Source: an uncultured Erythrobacter sp. (GTDB lineage: Bacteria > Pseudomonadota > Alphaproteobacteria > Sphingomonadales > Sphingomonadaceae). Taken from it: DNA of 64,000 nucleotides. The DNA lies in NCBI RefSeq assembly GCF_958304185.1, contig NZ_OY284436.1, positions 17,501-81,500 of the forward strand. Direction: 5' to 3'. Below the pieces are notes generated by a model. The model worked only from the letters and a program-made list of their open reading frames with translations, was not told where the DNA came from and did not search any database. Position numbers and translations under genes: made by a program. This document shows, piece after piece, positions 21,733 through 50,979 of the stretch; the first letter of the stretch is position 1, and each line of letters begins with the position of its first letter.

Positions 21733-22635
21733 ATGGAAAATGAGGAGCGCCCCCAAGTAGAACTTGTCGGTGAACCGCCGCGCCCGGCAGCGTGGCTGCT
21801 GCTTTTCGCGCTGTTCGGCGGGAACGTGGCGCTGGCGATTGGGCCGTGGTTCGTGCGCTTGGCGGATACAGGGCCAGTGGCCGCAGGGTTCTGGCGGCTG
21901 TTTCTGGCATTGCCGTTTCTGGTGCTGCTGGCGCGGGCGAATGGCCAGCGGCTGACGGGGATGCCTGCGACCACGCTGGCGCTGGTGGCACTGGGGGCGG
22001 TGACTTTCGCGCTCGATCTCGCCAGCTGGCACATCGGGATCGGCATGACGCGGCTGGGCAATGCGACGCTGTTCGGCAATGCCGGGTCGATTGTGCTGCT
22101 GTTCTGGGGCTTCCTCGTCGCGCGCACGCTGCCGGGGAAGCTGGAATGGCTGGCGATTGTCTTTGCCTTGGCGGGCGCGGCGATCCTGATGGGCCGCAGC
22201 CTCGAGATTTCGAACGAAACCCTGATCGGCGACCTGTTCAGCGTCGCCGCCGGGCTGCTTTACGCGGTGTACCTGCTGACCTTGCAAGGCGCGCGCGGGC
22301 AGTTCGGATCGTGGAGCCTGCTGGTATGGGTGAGCCTGTTCGGCTGCCCGGTGCTTTTGGCGATTGCCTTGGCGCTGGGTGAGCCGGTGTGGCCGCAGGC
22401 GTGGGGGCCGATTGTGGGGCTGTTCGTTCTCAGCCAGCTAGTGGGGCAGGGGTTGATGGTGTTCGCGCTGAAATACTTCCCGCCGCTGGTGGTGGGCTTG
22501 GCGCTACTGACCCAGCCTGCGGTGGCCTCGATCTACGGCTGGCTGGCATTCGGCGAGGTGCTGTCGCCGCTGGATATTGTGGGGATGGTGCTGGTGGGGG
22601 CTGCGCTGGCGGTGAGTAGGGCGAGGGCATCCTGA
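21733..22635 (+). CDS. EamA/DMT-superfamily transporter
   Basis: This 300-residue membrane protein has about ten hydrophobic helices arranged as two EamA repeats (about 18-145 and 160-295). Features of the family include AAGFWRLFLALP in helix 2, ASWHIGIGMTRLGNATLFGNAGSI around helices 3-4 and, in the second repeat, LLTQPAVASIYGWLAFGEVLSPLDIVG. Such proteins export metabolites or drugs; the substrate cannot be named. It diverges from the reductase gene and converges on the GIY-YIG gene, with a palindromic repeat filling the gap. Confidence 0.9.
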   Translation: MENEERPQVELVGEPPRPAAWLLLFALFGGNVALAIGPWFVRLADTGPVAAGFWRLFLALPFLVLLARANGQRLTGMPATTLALVALGAVTFALDLASWHIGIGMTRLGNATLFGNAGSIVLLFWGFLVARTLPGKLEWLAIVFALAGAAILMGRSLEISNETLIGDLFSVAAGLLYAVYLLTLQGARGQFGSWSLLVWVSLFGCPVLLAIALALGEPVWPQAWGPIVGLFVLSQLVGQGLMVFALKYFPPLVVGLALLTQPAVASIYGWLAFGEVLSPLDIVGMVLVGAALAVSRARAS

Positions 22636-22643
22636 CCAAACGC

Positions 22644-22673
22644 GTCACCCCAGCGAAAGCTGGGGCCTAGGGC
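22644..22673 (+). repeat. Palindromic repeat A, single copy
   Basis: This 30-base copy contains CCCCAGCGAAAGCTGGGG, a perfect 7-bp stem closed by a GAAA tetraloop, followed by CCTAGG. It ends two bases beyond the stop of the GIY-YIG gene. Two further copies lie on the other side of that gene at 22992-23021 (inverted) and 23035-23064. Confidence 0.88.
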
Positions 22674-22675
22674 AA

Positions 22676-22969
22676 TTATGCGTTGAGCGTGAGGAAGAGG
22701 TCATCCCAAGACGGGTTCTGCCTCTCGATCGCTTCGATCTTCCAAATCCGCTTCCAAGCCTTGAGCGCCTTTTCGCGGGCGATGGCGTCTTCGATGGTCG
22801 AGTGATGCTCGACATAGACCAGACATCTGCATTTGTAGCGCGATGTGAACGCGCCGCCCTTGCCTTCGCGGTGTTGCGTGATGCGGGCGGGTAGGTCGCT
22901 GGTTACGCCGGTGTAGAGCACGCCATAGCGCCTGTTCGTCATGATATAGATGTAGCCACCGCGTTCCAT
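22676..22969 (-). CDS. Small GIY-YIG nuclease-superfamily protein
   Basis: This 97-residue protein is a stand-alone GIY-YIG domain of the YhbQ/UPF0213 group. YIYIM near the N-terminus and LYTGVTSDL are the two halves of the motif. They are followed by the conserved Arg and His in RITQH, and then the metal-binding Glu in AIAREKALKAWKR. The family is expected to cut or nick DNA, but single-domain members have no firmly established role. The gene is enclosed by three copies of the same hairpin repeat, one two bases past its stop and an inverted pair starting about 20 bases before its start. By hand count its G+C is about 58 percent over 289 bases, lower than the surrounding genes look, so horizontal or mobile origin is plausible. 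Confidence 0.9.
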   Translation of the reverse strand: MERGGYIYIMTNRRYGVLYTGVTSDLPARITQHREGKGGAFTSRYKCRCLVYVEHHSTIEDAIAREKALKAWKRIWKIEAIERQNPSWDDLFLTLNA

Positions 22970-22988
22970 TTCAGAGGCTTAGCACATG

Positions 22989-23067
22989 GCCGCCCTAGGC
23001 CCCAGCTTTCGCTGGGGTGACGTGTTCTAACTTCGTCACCCCAGCGAAAGCTGGGGCCTAGGGCGGC
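22989..23067. repeat. Inverted doublet of palindromic repeat A (REPIN-like)
   Basis: Two copies of repeat A face each other (22992-23021 and 23035-23064) with 13 bases between, and the outer ends extend the match (GCC/GGC). Each has the CCCCAGC-GAAA-GCTGGGG hairpin. Together they can form one long cruciform. The doublet lies between the nadA stop and the GIY-YIG start, so it may also terminate nadA transcription. Confidence 0.88.
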
Positions 23068-23075
23068 ACGGAGTC

Positions 23076-24077
23076 TCAATCCCCGCTGAAATGCACCTTG
23101 CCCAAATCGCCCATCCCCACAGTCCCGCTCGCCATGTCCAGCATCCGGTCGAGGCTGCGCTTCGCTTTCAGCCTGATGCCTTCCTCGATCACGATCTGCG
23201 GTGAGAGGTCGCGCAGGGCGACGTAGAGCTTCTCCATCGTGTTCAGCGCCATGTAGGGGCAAATGTTGCACGAACAGTTCCCGTCCGCACCCGGCGCGCC
23301 GATGAAAGTCTTGTTCGGCAGCGCCTTTTCCATCTGGTGGATGATGTGCGGCTCGGTCGCGACGATCAGGGTGTCGCCTTCGAAGTCCTTGGCGAAGGCG
23401 AGGATGCCGCTGGTCGATCCCACATAGTCCGCGTGGTCGATGATCGTCGGCGGGCATTCCGGGTGCGCGGCGATGGGCGCGCCGGGGTATTGCTCTTTCA
23501 GCTTGAGCAGTTCGGTCTCCGAAAACGCCTCGTGCACGATGCACACGCCGGGCCACAGCAGCATCTCGCGGTTGAACTTGCGCGACAGGTATCCGCCCAA
23601 GTGCCGGTCGGGGCCGAAGATGATCTTCTGTTCGGGCGGAATCTGGGCGAGGATCGTCTCGGCGCTCGAAGAGGTGACGATCACGTCCGACAGCGCCTTC
23701 ACCTCGGTCGAGCAGTTGATGTAGGTCAGCGCGATGTGATCGGGGTGGGCTTCGCGAAACGCGCGGAATTTCTCCGGCGGGCAGCTGTCTTCAAGGCTGC
23801 ACCCGGCGTCCATATCGGGCAGGATCACGGTCTTTTGCGGTGAGAGGATCTTGGCGGTGTCGGCCATGAACTTGACCCCGCAGAAGGCGATCACATCCGC
23901 GTCCGTGGCTGCCGCCTTGCGCGAAAGCTCCAGCGAATCCCCCACGAAGTCGGCAATGTCCTGAATATCGGGCGTCTGGTAATAATGCGCGAGGATCACC
24001 GCGTTCTTCTCCTTGCGGAGGCGGTCGATCTCGGCCAGCAGATCGGTGCCGGTGGGGTTGCGGGTCAGCAGGCTCAT
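23076..24077 (-). CDS. nadA: Quinolinate synthase A
   Basis: This 333-residue [4Fe-4S] enzyme condenses iminoaspartate with dihydroxyacetone phosphate to quinolinate in NAD synthesis. Signature segments include ILAHYYQTPDIQDIADFVGDS, FCGVKFMADTAKI, the Cys in TYINCSTEVKA and the C-terminal GNCSCNICPYMALNTMEKL. The three cluster cysteines typical of the family can be placed in these segments. It is shorter than E. coli NadA (347) but normal for alphaproteobacteria. A GTG lies directly before the chosen ATG. nadB and nadC are not adjacent. Confidence 0.96.
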   Translation of the reverse strand: MSLLTRNPTGTDLLAEIDRLRKEKNAVILAHYYQTPDIQDIADFVGDSLELSRKAAATDADVIAFCGVKFMADTAKILSPQKTVILPDMDAGCSLEDSCPPEKFRAFREAHPDHIALTYINCSTEVKALSDVIVTSSSAETILAQIPPEQKIIFGPDRHLGGYLSRKFNREMLLWPGVCIVHEAFSETELLKLKEQYPGAPIAAHPECPPTIIDHADYVGSTSGILAFAKDFEGDTLIVATEPHIIHQMEKALPNKTFIGAPGADGNCSCNICPYMALNTMEKLYVALRDLSPQIVIEEGIRLKAKRSLDRMLDMASGTVGMGDLGKVHFSGD

Positions 24078-24158
24078 CACTCGTATCCCCGTTGTCTCAG
24101 GAACCGCCGATATAGGGGGCGCCGCGCGATTTTCGAGCGAAAAGCTTGGGCACCGGCC

Positions 24159-48726: not shown

Positions 48727-50979
48727 GTGTACTTCATCAACAAACTTGCCCTCTCCGCCGCCCCTCTCACCCTACTCGCCGTCCCCGCTACTGCCGAGGA
48801 TCTCGCATCCGAAGCCGACGCTGAAGCGCAGCAGCAGACCGGGCGGATCACGGTCACCGCGACCCGCACGCCGGTGTTGCAGGAGGAGGCGCCCGCCACC
48901 GTCACGATCATCACTGATCAGGAAATCGCCGACCAGCTTGCGACTGACATCAAGGACTTGATCCGGTTCGAACCCGGCGTCTCCGTCCGTCGCGCGCCCG
49001 CTCGCTTCGGTGCGGCGATTGGGGCGACGGGCCGCGCGCGCAACGAGGGCTTTACCGTGCGCGGGATCGGCGGCAACCGGGTGCTGGTTCAGGTCGATGG
49101 CATCCGCGCGCCGCAGGGCTTCAGCTTCGGCCCACAGGATGCCGGACGCGGCGGATCTGCCGATGTCAGTCTCGTCAAACAAGTCGAAATCCTGCGCGGC
49201 CCGGCCTCTGCGCTTTACGGTTCAGACGGGCTGGCGGGCGCGATCAGCTTTGTCACCTCTGACCCGGTCGATATCATCGCAGGCGCCAGCATCGGCGGCT
49301 TCGTCACCTCGCAATACTCCAGCGACGACAATGAATTCGCCCAGACCGCAACGCTGGCCGGGCAGGCCGGCAACTGGTCGGCGATGGTGGCCTATACCCG
49401 CCGCGATTTCAGTGAACTCGACAATCAGGGCACGACCGAGGGCACAGGCCCCGCCCGCACCGCACCCAACCCGCAGGACGGGCGCAGTGATGCGGTGCTC
49501 GCCAAGCTGGTGTGGGACAACGGCCCGCATCGCATCCGCCTGACGGGCGAATATCTGGACAGTGCGGTGGAGACGCAGGTGCTGACAGGCACCGGCCCGG
49601 CTTTCACCTTTGGCCCCAATCCCGTGTGGACCGTAGATGCCCTTAACGCCCGCGACACGACTGAGCGGCTGCGCGCCTCGCTCGACTGGACCTATGATGG
49701 TTCGCCCGAGGACGCGATCGAATATGCCTTCCTCTCGGCCTATTGGCAGGACACCGAAGACCGCCAATTCGCGCTTGAGGAACGCACCACCCTCACTGCC
49801 ACGCCGGCGCCCGATCGTGAGCGGCTGAACACCTTCGAGAACCGCGTCTACGGTGCGGCGGGCGAAGTGCGCTCAGGCTTCGACCTCGGCGGCATGGCGC
49901 ACCGCATTGCGATCGGCGGCGATATCAGCTGGACCCGGCAGGAAGGGCTGCGCAGCGGCACCGTGCCGGGCCGGGGTGAGACGTTCCCGACCCGCGCCTT
50001 CCCGGCGACCGATTTCACGCTGGGCGGTCTGTTCGTCGCCGACGAGATTGACCTGCTGGACGGGGCGCTGACGCTGTTCCCGGCGCTGCGGTTCGACTTC
50101 TATGATCTGAACCCGACCGACGATCCGCTGCTGCCGACCTTCACCGCCTCGGGCCAGAGCGACAGCCGCCTCTCCCCCAAGCTGGGCGTCACCGTAAAGC
50201 TCGCGCCAGAGGTGATCCTGTTCGGCAATTACGCGCAAGGCTTCCTCGCGCCGACACCAAGCCAGGTGAACAACTTCTTCGAGTTCATCGCGGGCGGTTA
50301 CACCTCGATCCCCAACCCCGATCTGCGGCCCGAGACCAGCGAAAGCTGGGAGGTCGGCGCGCGTTATGTGGGCGAGGTGTTCTCGCTCCAGCTGACCGCC
50401 TTCAAGGGTGATTACGACAACTTCATCAGCCAGCAGGTGGTGAGCGGCAGCTTCACCCCACAGGATCCGGCGATTTACCAATTCGTCAATTTCGACGCGG
50501 TGGAAATCGAAGGGCTGGAAGCGCGCGGCGAGGTGAAGCTGGACAGCGGCTGGAACGCGCGGATCGCGCTGGCCTATGCCAATGGCGATGTGATTGCGCC
50601 GGGTGGCAGCCGCACACCGCTCGACACGATTGAACCGTTCAACATGGTTGCAGGGGTAGGCTATCGCGCGCCTTCGGGCAGGTTCGGCGGGGAGCTGATC
50701 CTGACGCATAACGCCCGCAAGGGCGCCAACGAGCTGGAGCGCGCGGCCAGTGGTGACGATCTTCTCGTGCGGCCCGATGCGTCCACCATCCTCGATCTCA
50801 CCGCCTTCTACGCCGTGACCGAGCGGCTGAAGCTGCGCGCTGGCCTCTTCAACCTGACCGACGAGACTTACACCCTGTGGTCCGATGTGCGCGGCCTCAG
50901 CGTCGCGGACGCCCGCATTGCTGATGCCTTCACCCGGCCGGGCCGCAACCTTAGCCTTTCGGCCAGCTACCGCTTCTGA
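48727..50979 (+). CDS. TonB-dependent receptor of the heme/hemoglobin-receptor type
   Basis: This 750-residue receptor starts at GTG with AGGA ten bases before. The signal peptide ends near VPATA. The plug has ITVTATRTP (TonB box region), NRVLVQVDGIRAPQG and VEILRGPASALYGSDGLAGAI. In the barrel it has NPDLRPETSESWEVG, and GFLAPTPSQVNNFF where heme receptors have the FRAP box, here reading FLAP. The barrel ends SYRF. Family placement with HmuR/PhuR-like receptors is my reading. It is the first gene of a unit with a DUF6607 protein and PiuC, and Fur-like sites precede it. Confidence 0.9.
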   Translation: MYFINKLALSAAPLTLLAVPATAEDLASEADAEAQQQTGRITVTATRTPVLQEEAPATVTIITDQEIADQLATDIKDLIRFEPGVSVRRAPARFGAAIGATGRARNEGFTVRGIGGNRVLVQVDGIRAPQGFSFGPQDAGRGGSADVSLVKQVEILRGPASALYGSDGLAGAISFVTSDPVDIIAGASIGGFVTSQYSSDDNEFAQTATLAGQAGNWSAMVAYTRRDFSELDNQGTTEGTGPARTAPNPQDGRSDAVLAKLVWDNGPHRIRLTGEYLDSAVETQVLTGTGPAFTFGPNPVWTVDALNARDTTERLRASLDWTYDGSPEDAIEYAFLSAYWQDTEDRQFALEERTTLTATPAPDRERLNTFENRVYGAAGEVRSGFDLGGMAHRIAIGGDISWTRQEGLRSGTVPGRGETFPTRAFPATDFTLGGLFVADEIDLLDGALTLFPALRFDFYDLNPTDDPLLPTFTASGQSDSRLSPKLGVTVKLAPEVILFGNYAQGFLAPTPSQVNNFFEFIAGGYTSIPNPDLRPETSESWEVGARYVGEVFSLQLTAFKGDYDNFISQQVVSGSFTPQDPAIYQFVNFDAVEIEGLEARGEVKLDSGWNARIALAYANGDVIAPGGSRTPLDTIEPFNMVAGVGYRAPSGRFGGELILTHNARKGANELERAASGDDLLVRPDASTILDLTAFYAVTERLKLRAGLFNLTDETYTLWSDVRGLSVADARIADAFTRPGRNLSLSASYRF

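Follow-up and report, generated by a model that had tools for sequence, protein, structure and literature searches.

The GIY-YIG nuclease gene studied here and the two outward-facing, CGTC-tagged REPs enclosing it probably form a minimal autonomous mobile element, whose nuclease would mobilize the element itself and gene-less REP dimers (REPINs). The association of the gene with the palindromes is real beyond reasonable doubt, and it is well supported that the gene and its flanking REPs travel as one unit. From sequence comparisons, we infer that the nuclease moves this unit and, in trans, the gene-less REPINs.

We analyzed a 64,000-nucleotide stretch of DNA from an uncultured Erythrobacter sp., hereafter the window. 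The features of the proposed element and its surroundings are summarized in Table 1. An earlier note on this DNA had described a 97-residue GIY-YIG gene with three copies of one palindrome, and we found both the open reading frame and three exact copies of the 18-base palindrome CCCCAGCGAAAGCTGGGG, at 22648 (+), 23000 (-), and 23039 (+). Tag included, each REP begins with CGTC-A-CCCCAGC-GAAA-GCTGGGG-CCTAGGGC; the REP at the 3' end of the gene has a 7-bp stem and a GAAA loop. When up to three mismatches were allowed, the window contained four matches against 0.07 expected, and four were reached in none of 100 shuffles. The fourth, weaker relative (50334-50351, 3 mismatches, GACCAGCGAAAGCTGGGA) is distant from the GIY-YIG gene.

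Table 1 Features of the proposed element and its surroundings in the window.
Feature	Position	Strand	Remarks
Left neighbor, presumably an EamA-type transporter-like gene	21733..22635	+	adjoins the insertion site
REP at the 3' end of the gene	22643..22673	+	CGTC tag 22643-22646, stem-loop 22648-22665, tail CCTAGGGC; tag outward
GIY-YIG nuclease gene, 97 aa	22676..22969	-	C-terminal WK..IE..NP.W.DL extension
REP at the 5' end of the gene	22989..23022	-	inverted copy, same sequence; CGTC tag 23019-23022 outward
Proposed element REP-gene-REP	22643..23022	-	380 bp, tag to tag
Spacer between element and third REP	23023..23033	.	11 bp
Third REP, single copy outside the element	23034..23067	+	tag faces the element
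Right neighbor, presumably a quinolinate synthase-like gene (nadA)	23076..24080	-	

The downstream repeat, including its tail, ends two bases past the stop codon of the GIY-YIG gene, exactly as described before, and the nearest upstream repeat starts 19 bases before the ATG, close to the 20 bases first estimated. The 13 bases originally placed between the two upstream copies were reduced to 11 when the CGTC tags were counted into the repeats. The gene was also said to be less GC-rich than its neighbors, at about 58%; we measured 57.5%, compared with 66.3% and 62.4% for the two neighboring genes and 65.4% for the window. Folding predictions for single-stranded DNA gave the expected hairpins at all three window REPs (z of -2.9, -2.0, and -1.8), and a genomic dimer was predicted to fold into one long hairpin (-37.7 kcal/mol, z -10.2).

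We counted the repeat in the genome from which the window was taken (3.29 Mb, 5 contigs). It occurred 61 times at two or fewer mismatches, and a reversed control pattern did not occur at all. Among the 23 pairs of neighboring copies less than 400 bp apart, 22 had outward CGTC tags, the pair enclosing the gene included. The single exception was the close upstream pair in the window, whose tags face each other. This pair had been considered a REPIN in the earlier note; the assignment was ruled out by its tag orientation, unlike that of the 22 other pairs, and it is the gene-enclosing pair that has the REPIN layout. The first interpretation was therefore right in part: that the nuclease belongs to the hairpin family is strongly supported, but the layout was misread, the unit being the outward pair that encloses the gene.

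All 21 gene-less dimers in this genome were outward, and 20 of them had starts 53-54 bp apart (69 bp in the remaining one). Their subterminal sequence is of the CCTAGGGC type, as in the gene-bearing unit. Against the mobile-element reading, the dimers are mostly heterodimers, with CGTCACCCC and CGTCATCCC as their two arms, whereas the ends of the element are identical. The genome encodes four GIY-YIG genes, one of them belonging to the clade of the window gene. A search with PF01797 found no Y1 (RAYT-type) transposase in this genome. As the genome contains REPINs but lacks a Y1 transposase, the nuclease would be the simplest explanation for their movement.

To see the arrangement in other genomes, we used 147 genomes of the order. 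A homologue was found at E <= 1e-8 in 69 of these, with one to seven copies each. We examined 111 loci and later 39 more, and the resulting 150 are meant to be all homologue matches. A strict detector was used, which accepted CGTC or TGTC, an 8-bp stem with at most one mismatch, and a loop of 3-8 bases. In the 111 loci, an outward tagged hairpin was detected within 200 bp upstream in 80 and downstream in 74, and in only 0-7 of 105-110 in bins farther out. Within 250 bp, hairpins were present on both sides in 69 loci, on one side in 19, and on neither in 23; most of these 23 have, by eye, palindromes missed by the detector, either a longer form (CGTCATTGCGAG...GCAATCC) or a similarly built one whose tag is different. 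Over the 150 loci, the strict counts were 92 (both sides), 26 (one), and 32 (none), changing to 98, 28, and 24 when the longer form was added. The median distance was 28 bases from the upstream palindrome to the start codon (81 loci) and 11.5 bases from the stop codon to the downstream palindrome (76 loci).

Controls differed sharply from these counts. Tagged hairpins had a density of 0.973 per 200 bp next to the gene, which fell to 0.031 at distances over 400 bp. Distant 500-bp windows contained a tagged palindrome, in either orientation, in 15 of 289 cases. With nadA as the control gene (28 of 30 loci used), we found one palindrome on the left, one on the right, and no locus with both. The adjacency of repeat and gene, which the earlier note had suggested scoring in related genomes, is thus far beyond chance.

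Among the 140 of 150 loci with the C-terminal N..W.D motif, 96 had tagged palindromes on both sides, 26 on one, and 18 on neither, while the ten loci without the motif as searched gave 2, 2, and 6. Four loci of the same order (L376, L378, L379, and L380) encode another GIY-YIG subfamily that has no C-terminal extension; they lacked tagged palindromes and serve as a small but telling negative control. On the opposing side are the 18 motif-bearing members without tagged palindromes, 12 of which show, by eye, like-built palindromes with another tag, and two loci (L373 and L374) that are close to family members yet have neither the motif as searched nor palindromes.

The loci with another tag are L085, L090, L091, L093, L095, L097, L112, L122, L123, L128, L131, and L139. 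By eye, palindromes with a GCGAA-type loop bracket the family genes there, and the tag resembles GTGTTCC or GTGCTCC. Several of these copies seem to have neighboring genes in common, as if fixed in place. These palindromes possibly represent a further tag class.

We compared the two ends of each unit. The loop class was the same on the left and on the right in all 66 loci with both ends classed (35 GCGAAGC and 31 CTTG); three more loci had one unclassed end. For a detector-free test, the 200 bp upstream of the gene was aligned to the reverse complement of the 200 bp downstream. A score of at least 15 was obtained in 94 of 111 loci, compared with 1/110, 0/109, and 0/108 when the windows were displaced by 300, 600, and 900 bp, and with 13/111 between different loci.

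The type of palindrome also corresponds to the protein. A tree was built from 109 proteins, two of the 111 being omitted for an internal stop; 85 of the 109 had a classed palindrome. The tree used 101 columns, and 46 of its 106 inner branches were unresolved. On it, the palindrome class changed nine times, compared with 28.8 times on average and never fewer than 21 in 300 shuffles. Protein identity and palindrome identity were correlated (Spearman 0.258; 3,606 pairs from different genomes), a value reached in none of 999 permutations, whose maximum was 0.091. In 52 loci, a paralogue was less similar to the protein than its best foreign homologue was; here the REP was nearer to that of the foreign homologue in 45, nearer to those of the genome's own paralogues in 6, and tied in 1. 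Linkage alone could produce such concordance near the gene, and the genome-wide counts therefore weigh more.

REP type B (GTCGCCCCGTGCTTGACACGGGGCTTGG, two or fewer mismatches) was present in all six genomes with its gene clade, which belong to five genera, and in 1 of 141 others (Fisher p 5.5e-10, without correction for phylogeny). The one exception is the window's own genome, where that clade is absent and 2 exact and 7 mutated copies were found. The window REP type at one or fewer mismatches was present in all three genomes with its gene clade and in none of the 144 others; two mismatches added three further genomes, with 1-3 copies. The three clade-bearing genomes are of one genus, and three gene-less members of that genus lacked the repeat. 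None of the 39 later loci belongs to the type B gene clade or to the window's clade. CGTGCTTGACACG belongs to a REP type other than the window's own.

We extended the count to 61 genomes of the genus, a sample separate from that of the order, with the clade defined by at least 76% identity. The seven genomes with the clade contained 45, 22, 16, 5, 4, 1, and 0 copies of the window REP; 37 of the 54 genomes without it had no REP and 17 had 1-11 copies (Mann-Whitney p 0.0002 for copy numbers with and without the clade). The expected dependence of the repeat on the gene was supported in that genome-wide repeats follow the gene clade, but it is incomplete, with orphan REPs occurring, in lower number, in those 17 gene-less genomes. 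Two clade-bearing genomes also count against it: G171 has a single REP copy, and in G189 the exact type is absent, the REPs that flank its gene deviating by two and three letters.

In relatives, near-identical copies occur at dispersed places, each with flanks of its own. One genome of the same genus, G198, carries seven dispersed full elements, each 371 bp from tag to tag and 94.9-98.1% identical; three of them have an in-frame stop, which is the same in two. Contig ends truncate five more ends of the element (three left, two right; L316, L323, L328, L329, and L332), so that at least three more copies must exist. The G198 assembly is broken by the element, whose real copy number exceeds seven. 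Of the 21 REP hits of that type in G198, 19 are in full elements (14) or contig-cut elements (5), and we found no pool of gene-less dimers for this type in that genome. Another relative, G110, has three dispersed copies. Against a simple tag-to-tag element, homology in G198 runs about 45 nt past the left tag and partly past the right tag, so the ends of the element may not coincide with the tags.

Filled and empty orthologous sites were both observed, with divergence preventing base-exact junctions. Of 30 nadA loci of the genus that were read, six, the window's included, have the gene (L145, L149, L152, L154, L163, and L167). Junctions lacking both gene and repeats, which the first description of this DNA had proposed to look for, exist in four relatives as a short EamA-like/nadA junction (L153, L156, L169, and L172). 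At the same junction, L164 has a single decayed REP, possibly the relic of a lost element. The rest of the loci have other sequence, or the EamA-like match is absent from the stretch. The REP loci of the window's genome were also compared with 40 stretches from three relatives, and alignments were inspected at nine loci (L005, L006, L013, L014, L015, L016, L020, L023, and L030). Absence of the REPIN in a relative was clear at L006, L030, L013, and L005. No target-site duplication was readable at the nine loci, where divergence blurs the junctions.

At two orthologous intergenic sites (L023/L212 and L015/L218), related species carry different REP types, suggesting repeated insertion into the same gaps. 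We also considered GCGGAC[AG]TT as a general insertion target. It appeared convincing in G198 at first and was then rejected on the counts: 4 of 111 loci (2.1 expected), 0 of 27 REP loci of the window's genome (0.9 expected), and 3 of 19 genus loci (0.3 expected, not counting L185).

The window protein matched PF01541 at 59.4 bits, its sole Pfam match. Four family members match this model, and no NCBIfam model matched the four that were tried. The GIY/YIG motifs, the conserved Arg and Glu, and the fold place the protein in the GIY-YIG superfamily. Residues invariant in 30 diverse members include G16, Y19, G21, R29, H33, E66, N85, W88, and D90, some of them presumably catalytic. The C-terminal WK..IE..NP.W.DL stretch is conserved in the same members. 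In a structure model with a pLDDT of 94.7, the closest solved folds were UPF0213 BH0048 (E 1.1e-3), followed by Slx1-Slx4 (E 0.05 and weaker), none being below 0.001; UPF0213 is also the best sequence match. The small UPF0213 and Slx1-like GIY-YIG proteins thus share the fold, but the conserved C-terminal extension distinguishes the window family. The modeled fold would fit an enzyme that cuts branched or hairpin DNA. The window gene is under purifying selection (median dN/dS 0.15; 36 pairs from nine orthologues). In Sphingobium TomMM7A (L343), a family gene is annotated from a late start as 'excinuclease ABC subunit C', a misleading name.

A scan of named genomes detected at least 578 family loci. 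We checked the best 80 of these for palindromes; many are from metagenome-assembled genomes, a few duplicate genomes of the order sample, and L235 is the record of the query protein itself. Judged by record title, these 80 span several proteobacterial classes, Nitrospira, Chloroflexi, Omnitrophota, Zixibacteria, Atribacteria, Acetothermia, Myxococcota, and several candidate-phyla bacteria. The strict detector found tagged palindromes at both ends in 40 of the best 80, at one end in 32, and at neither in 8; at least one end was marked in 72/80. In the first 200 bp, hairpins were found in 56/80 upstream and 49/76 downstream, compared with 0-6 of 63-79 farther out.

In a plasmid collection, 33 records contained a homologue, and ten were read by eye. 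The enclosing REP layout was seen in records of Novosphingobium, Sphingobium, Sinorhizobium (with an imperfect right tag), and Rhizobium. In Azospirillum lipoferum AZO_p3 (L338), the gene has a full REP dimer on each side and is located between sufB and sufC of an iron-sulfur operon. Planktothrix and Spirosoma have TGTC-tagged palindromes near the gene. Three records read by eye were contrary: Aeromonas has one palindrome upstream and no enclosing pair, Photobacterium has no enclosing pair, and Neisseria gonorrhoeae has dRS3-type repeats whose nearest copies have tags facing the gene. The 'plasmid' records H15, H16, and H18, of 2.2 and 4.9 Mb (Neisseria gonorrhoeae and Aeromonas caviae), look like chromosomes. 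In Planktothrix agardhii plasmid p1 (L341), the gene has a type IIL restriction-modification gene on one side and drmA, which encodes the DISARM helicase, on the other.

We compared the window repeat with the CGTC-tagged REPs, one of two large REP superfamilies. Di Nocera et al. (2013; PMC3733652) describe these REPs as mainly alphaproteobacterial, mainly head-to-head dimers with an 8-9 bp stem, a 4-5 base loop, and a short tail; they include Neisseria dRS3 and rickettsial RPE-6/RPE-4. The paper leaves the mover open: the repeats are apparently without a dedicated transposase, no tyrosine transposase was found flanked by them, and the associations seen with other transposase classes were only few and fortuitous. 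The window copies agree in having CGTC, seven paired bases plus one mismatched position, and a GAAA loop, and in being a high-copy repeat, mostly as inverted dimers with outward tags. They differ in that the first stem position is A-C, that the tail is CCTAGGGC and not CCA, and that they bracket a GIY-YIG family. According to that source, the first stem pair is A-T 'almost invariably' and a CCA-type tail is present in 'most', so neither is an absolute criterion. Many REPs of the relatives have both the A-T first pair and the CCA-type tail.

REP/REPIN-RAYT systems resemble the window element. In both, a single nuclease gene is flanked by inverted dimers of small palindromes, each of which has a 4-base tag on one side (PMC8049555 and PMC3733652), and in both the gene is retained vertically over long times beside a population of dimers that lack it (PMC8049555). 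The protein here, however, is a GIY-YIG nuclease (PF01541 only) and not a Y1 HuH transposase, and the window tag is CGTC, not GTAG. RAYTs are described in PMC8049555 as single-copy and not self-copying, whereas full GIY-YIG elements are sometimes multicopy. GIY-YIG homing endonucleases and Penelope-like retroelements likewise place a GIY-YIG catalytic domain in a selfish element (PMC1564403). Unlike these, the window element has no intron, reverse transcriptase, or further domain, and consists of a single small protein (97 aa) between two hairpins. Our searches of the open-licence PMC literature found no published link between GIY-YIG proteins and REPs. To our knowledge, no REP-mobilizing or transposon system uses a GIY-YIG nuclease alone, so the system would be of a new kind.

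We propose the following model. The element would consist of two outward CGTC-tagged REPs and one GIY-YIG nuclease gene between them, with gene-less dimers of the same REP as its non-autonomous relatives. Where DNA becomes single-stranded, for example at a replication fork, each REP would fold back into a hairpin flanked by its tag. The nuclease may bind its own hairpin type and then cut near the CGTC tag, and the freed or copied strand may reach a new site with the help of host polymerase and ligase. Host enzymes are included in the model because GIY-YIG enzymes hydrolyze DNA and keep no covalent link.

Other explanations account for parts of these data. The gene might be a homing endonuclease seated in a REPIN, with REPINs spreading by other means and the gene cutting gene-less REPINs and entering them through homologous repair. 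The GIY-YIG domain is classically associated with homing (PMC1564403), gene-less REPs occur in many genomes, and the homology past the REPs in G198 is as expected for homing into a larger repeat. We regard this as unlikely, since it leaves REPIN spread unexplained in a genome lacking a Y1 transposase, the genome-wide REP type depends on the gene clade, and G198, with 19 of its 21 REP hits inside elements, showed no pool of gene-less dimers to home into. It is quite improbable that the protein is a domesticated enzyme that trims or resolves REP hairpins, as DNA or RNA, for the host, with selection holding it next to REPs that it does not move. Purifying selection on the gene, its place beside nadA in six of the 30 relatives' loci read, the window's included, and the presence of the structure-specific nuclease Slx1 among the nearest folds are consistent with such a role. 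Its patchy presence (69/147 genomes) and the seven dispersed, near-identical G198 copies, three with in-frame stops, argue against it, and matched ends that travel with the gene fit a mobile element better.

A RAYT or other ordinary transposase could also move the REPs in trans, with the GIY-YIG gene as a passenger. Our transposase search covered the Y1 class, whose genes are present in 32 of the 147 genomes of the order, but their presence was unrelated to the family (16/69 genomes with it and 16/78 without it). The window's genome has no Y1 match, and Di Nocera et al. (2013; PMC3733652) report no tyrosine transposase flanked by CGTC repeats. We rejected RAYT as the mover on its absence from this genome and the lack of association in the order, and we give a transposase acting in trans very little chance overall. 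REPs are intergenic and common in these genomes, and repeat-rich regions might enclose a small gene by coincidence. This is hardly credible given the steep fall in hairpin density away from the gene, the near-zero values for displaced windows and nadA, and the recurrence of the pattern across phyla. A minimal element mobilized by its own nuclease remains the reading we prefer.

Judged from sequence comparison, the nuclease is a strong candidate for the missing mobilizer of a common class of bacterial repeats. We lean toward the broader view that this GIY-YIG family comprises dedicated mobilizers of the CGTC/TGTC-tagged REP superfamily across bacterial phyla, acting as minimal autonomous transposons. 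On that view, held with moderate confidence, GIY-YIG would be used where described REP systems use Y1 HuH, and the gene-less derivatives would be widespread bacterial repeats. The elements are about 370-380 bp in the two cases measured, with hairpin ends and one protein of about 95-105 aa. We know of no case in which GIY-YIG chemistry drives REP transposition. If the mobility were due to homing, the novelty would be less than that of a new kind of system. The family provides a concrete candidate enzyme for the CGTC-tagged REPs, in the same arrangement across many phyla. If our reading is true, it would add a nuclease chemistry to REP transposition and describe one of the smallest autonomous mobile elements, and it would give a function to genes annotated as 'GIY-YIG nuclease family protein', 'hypothetical protein', or, misleadingly, 'excinuclease ABC subunit C'.
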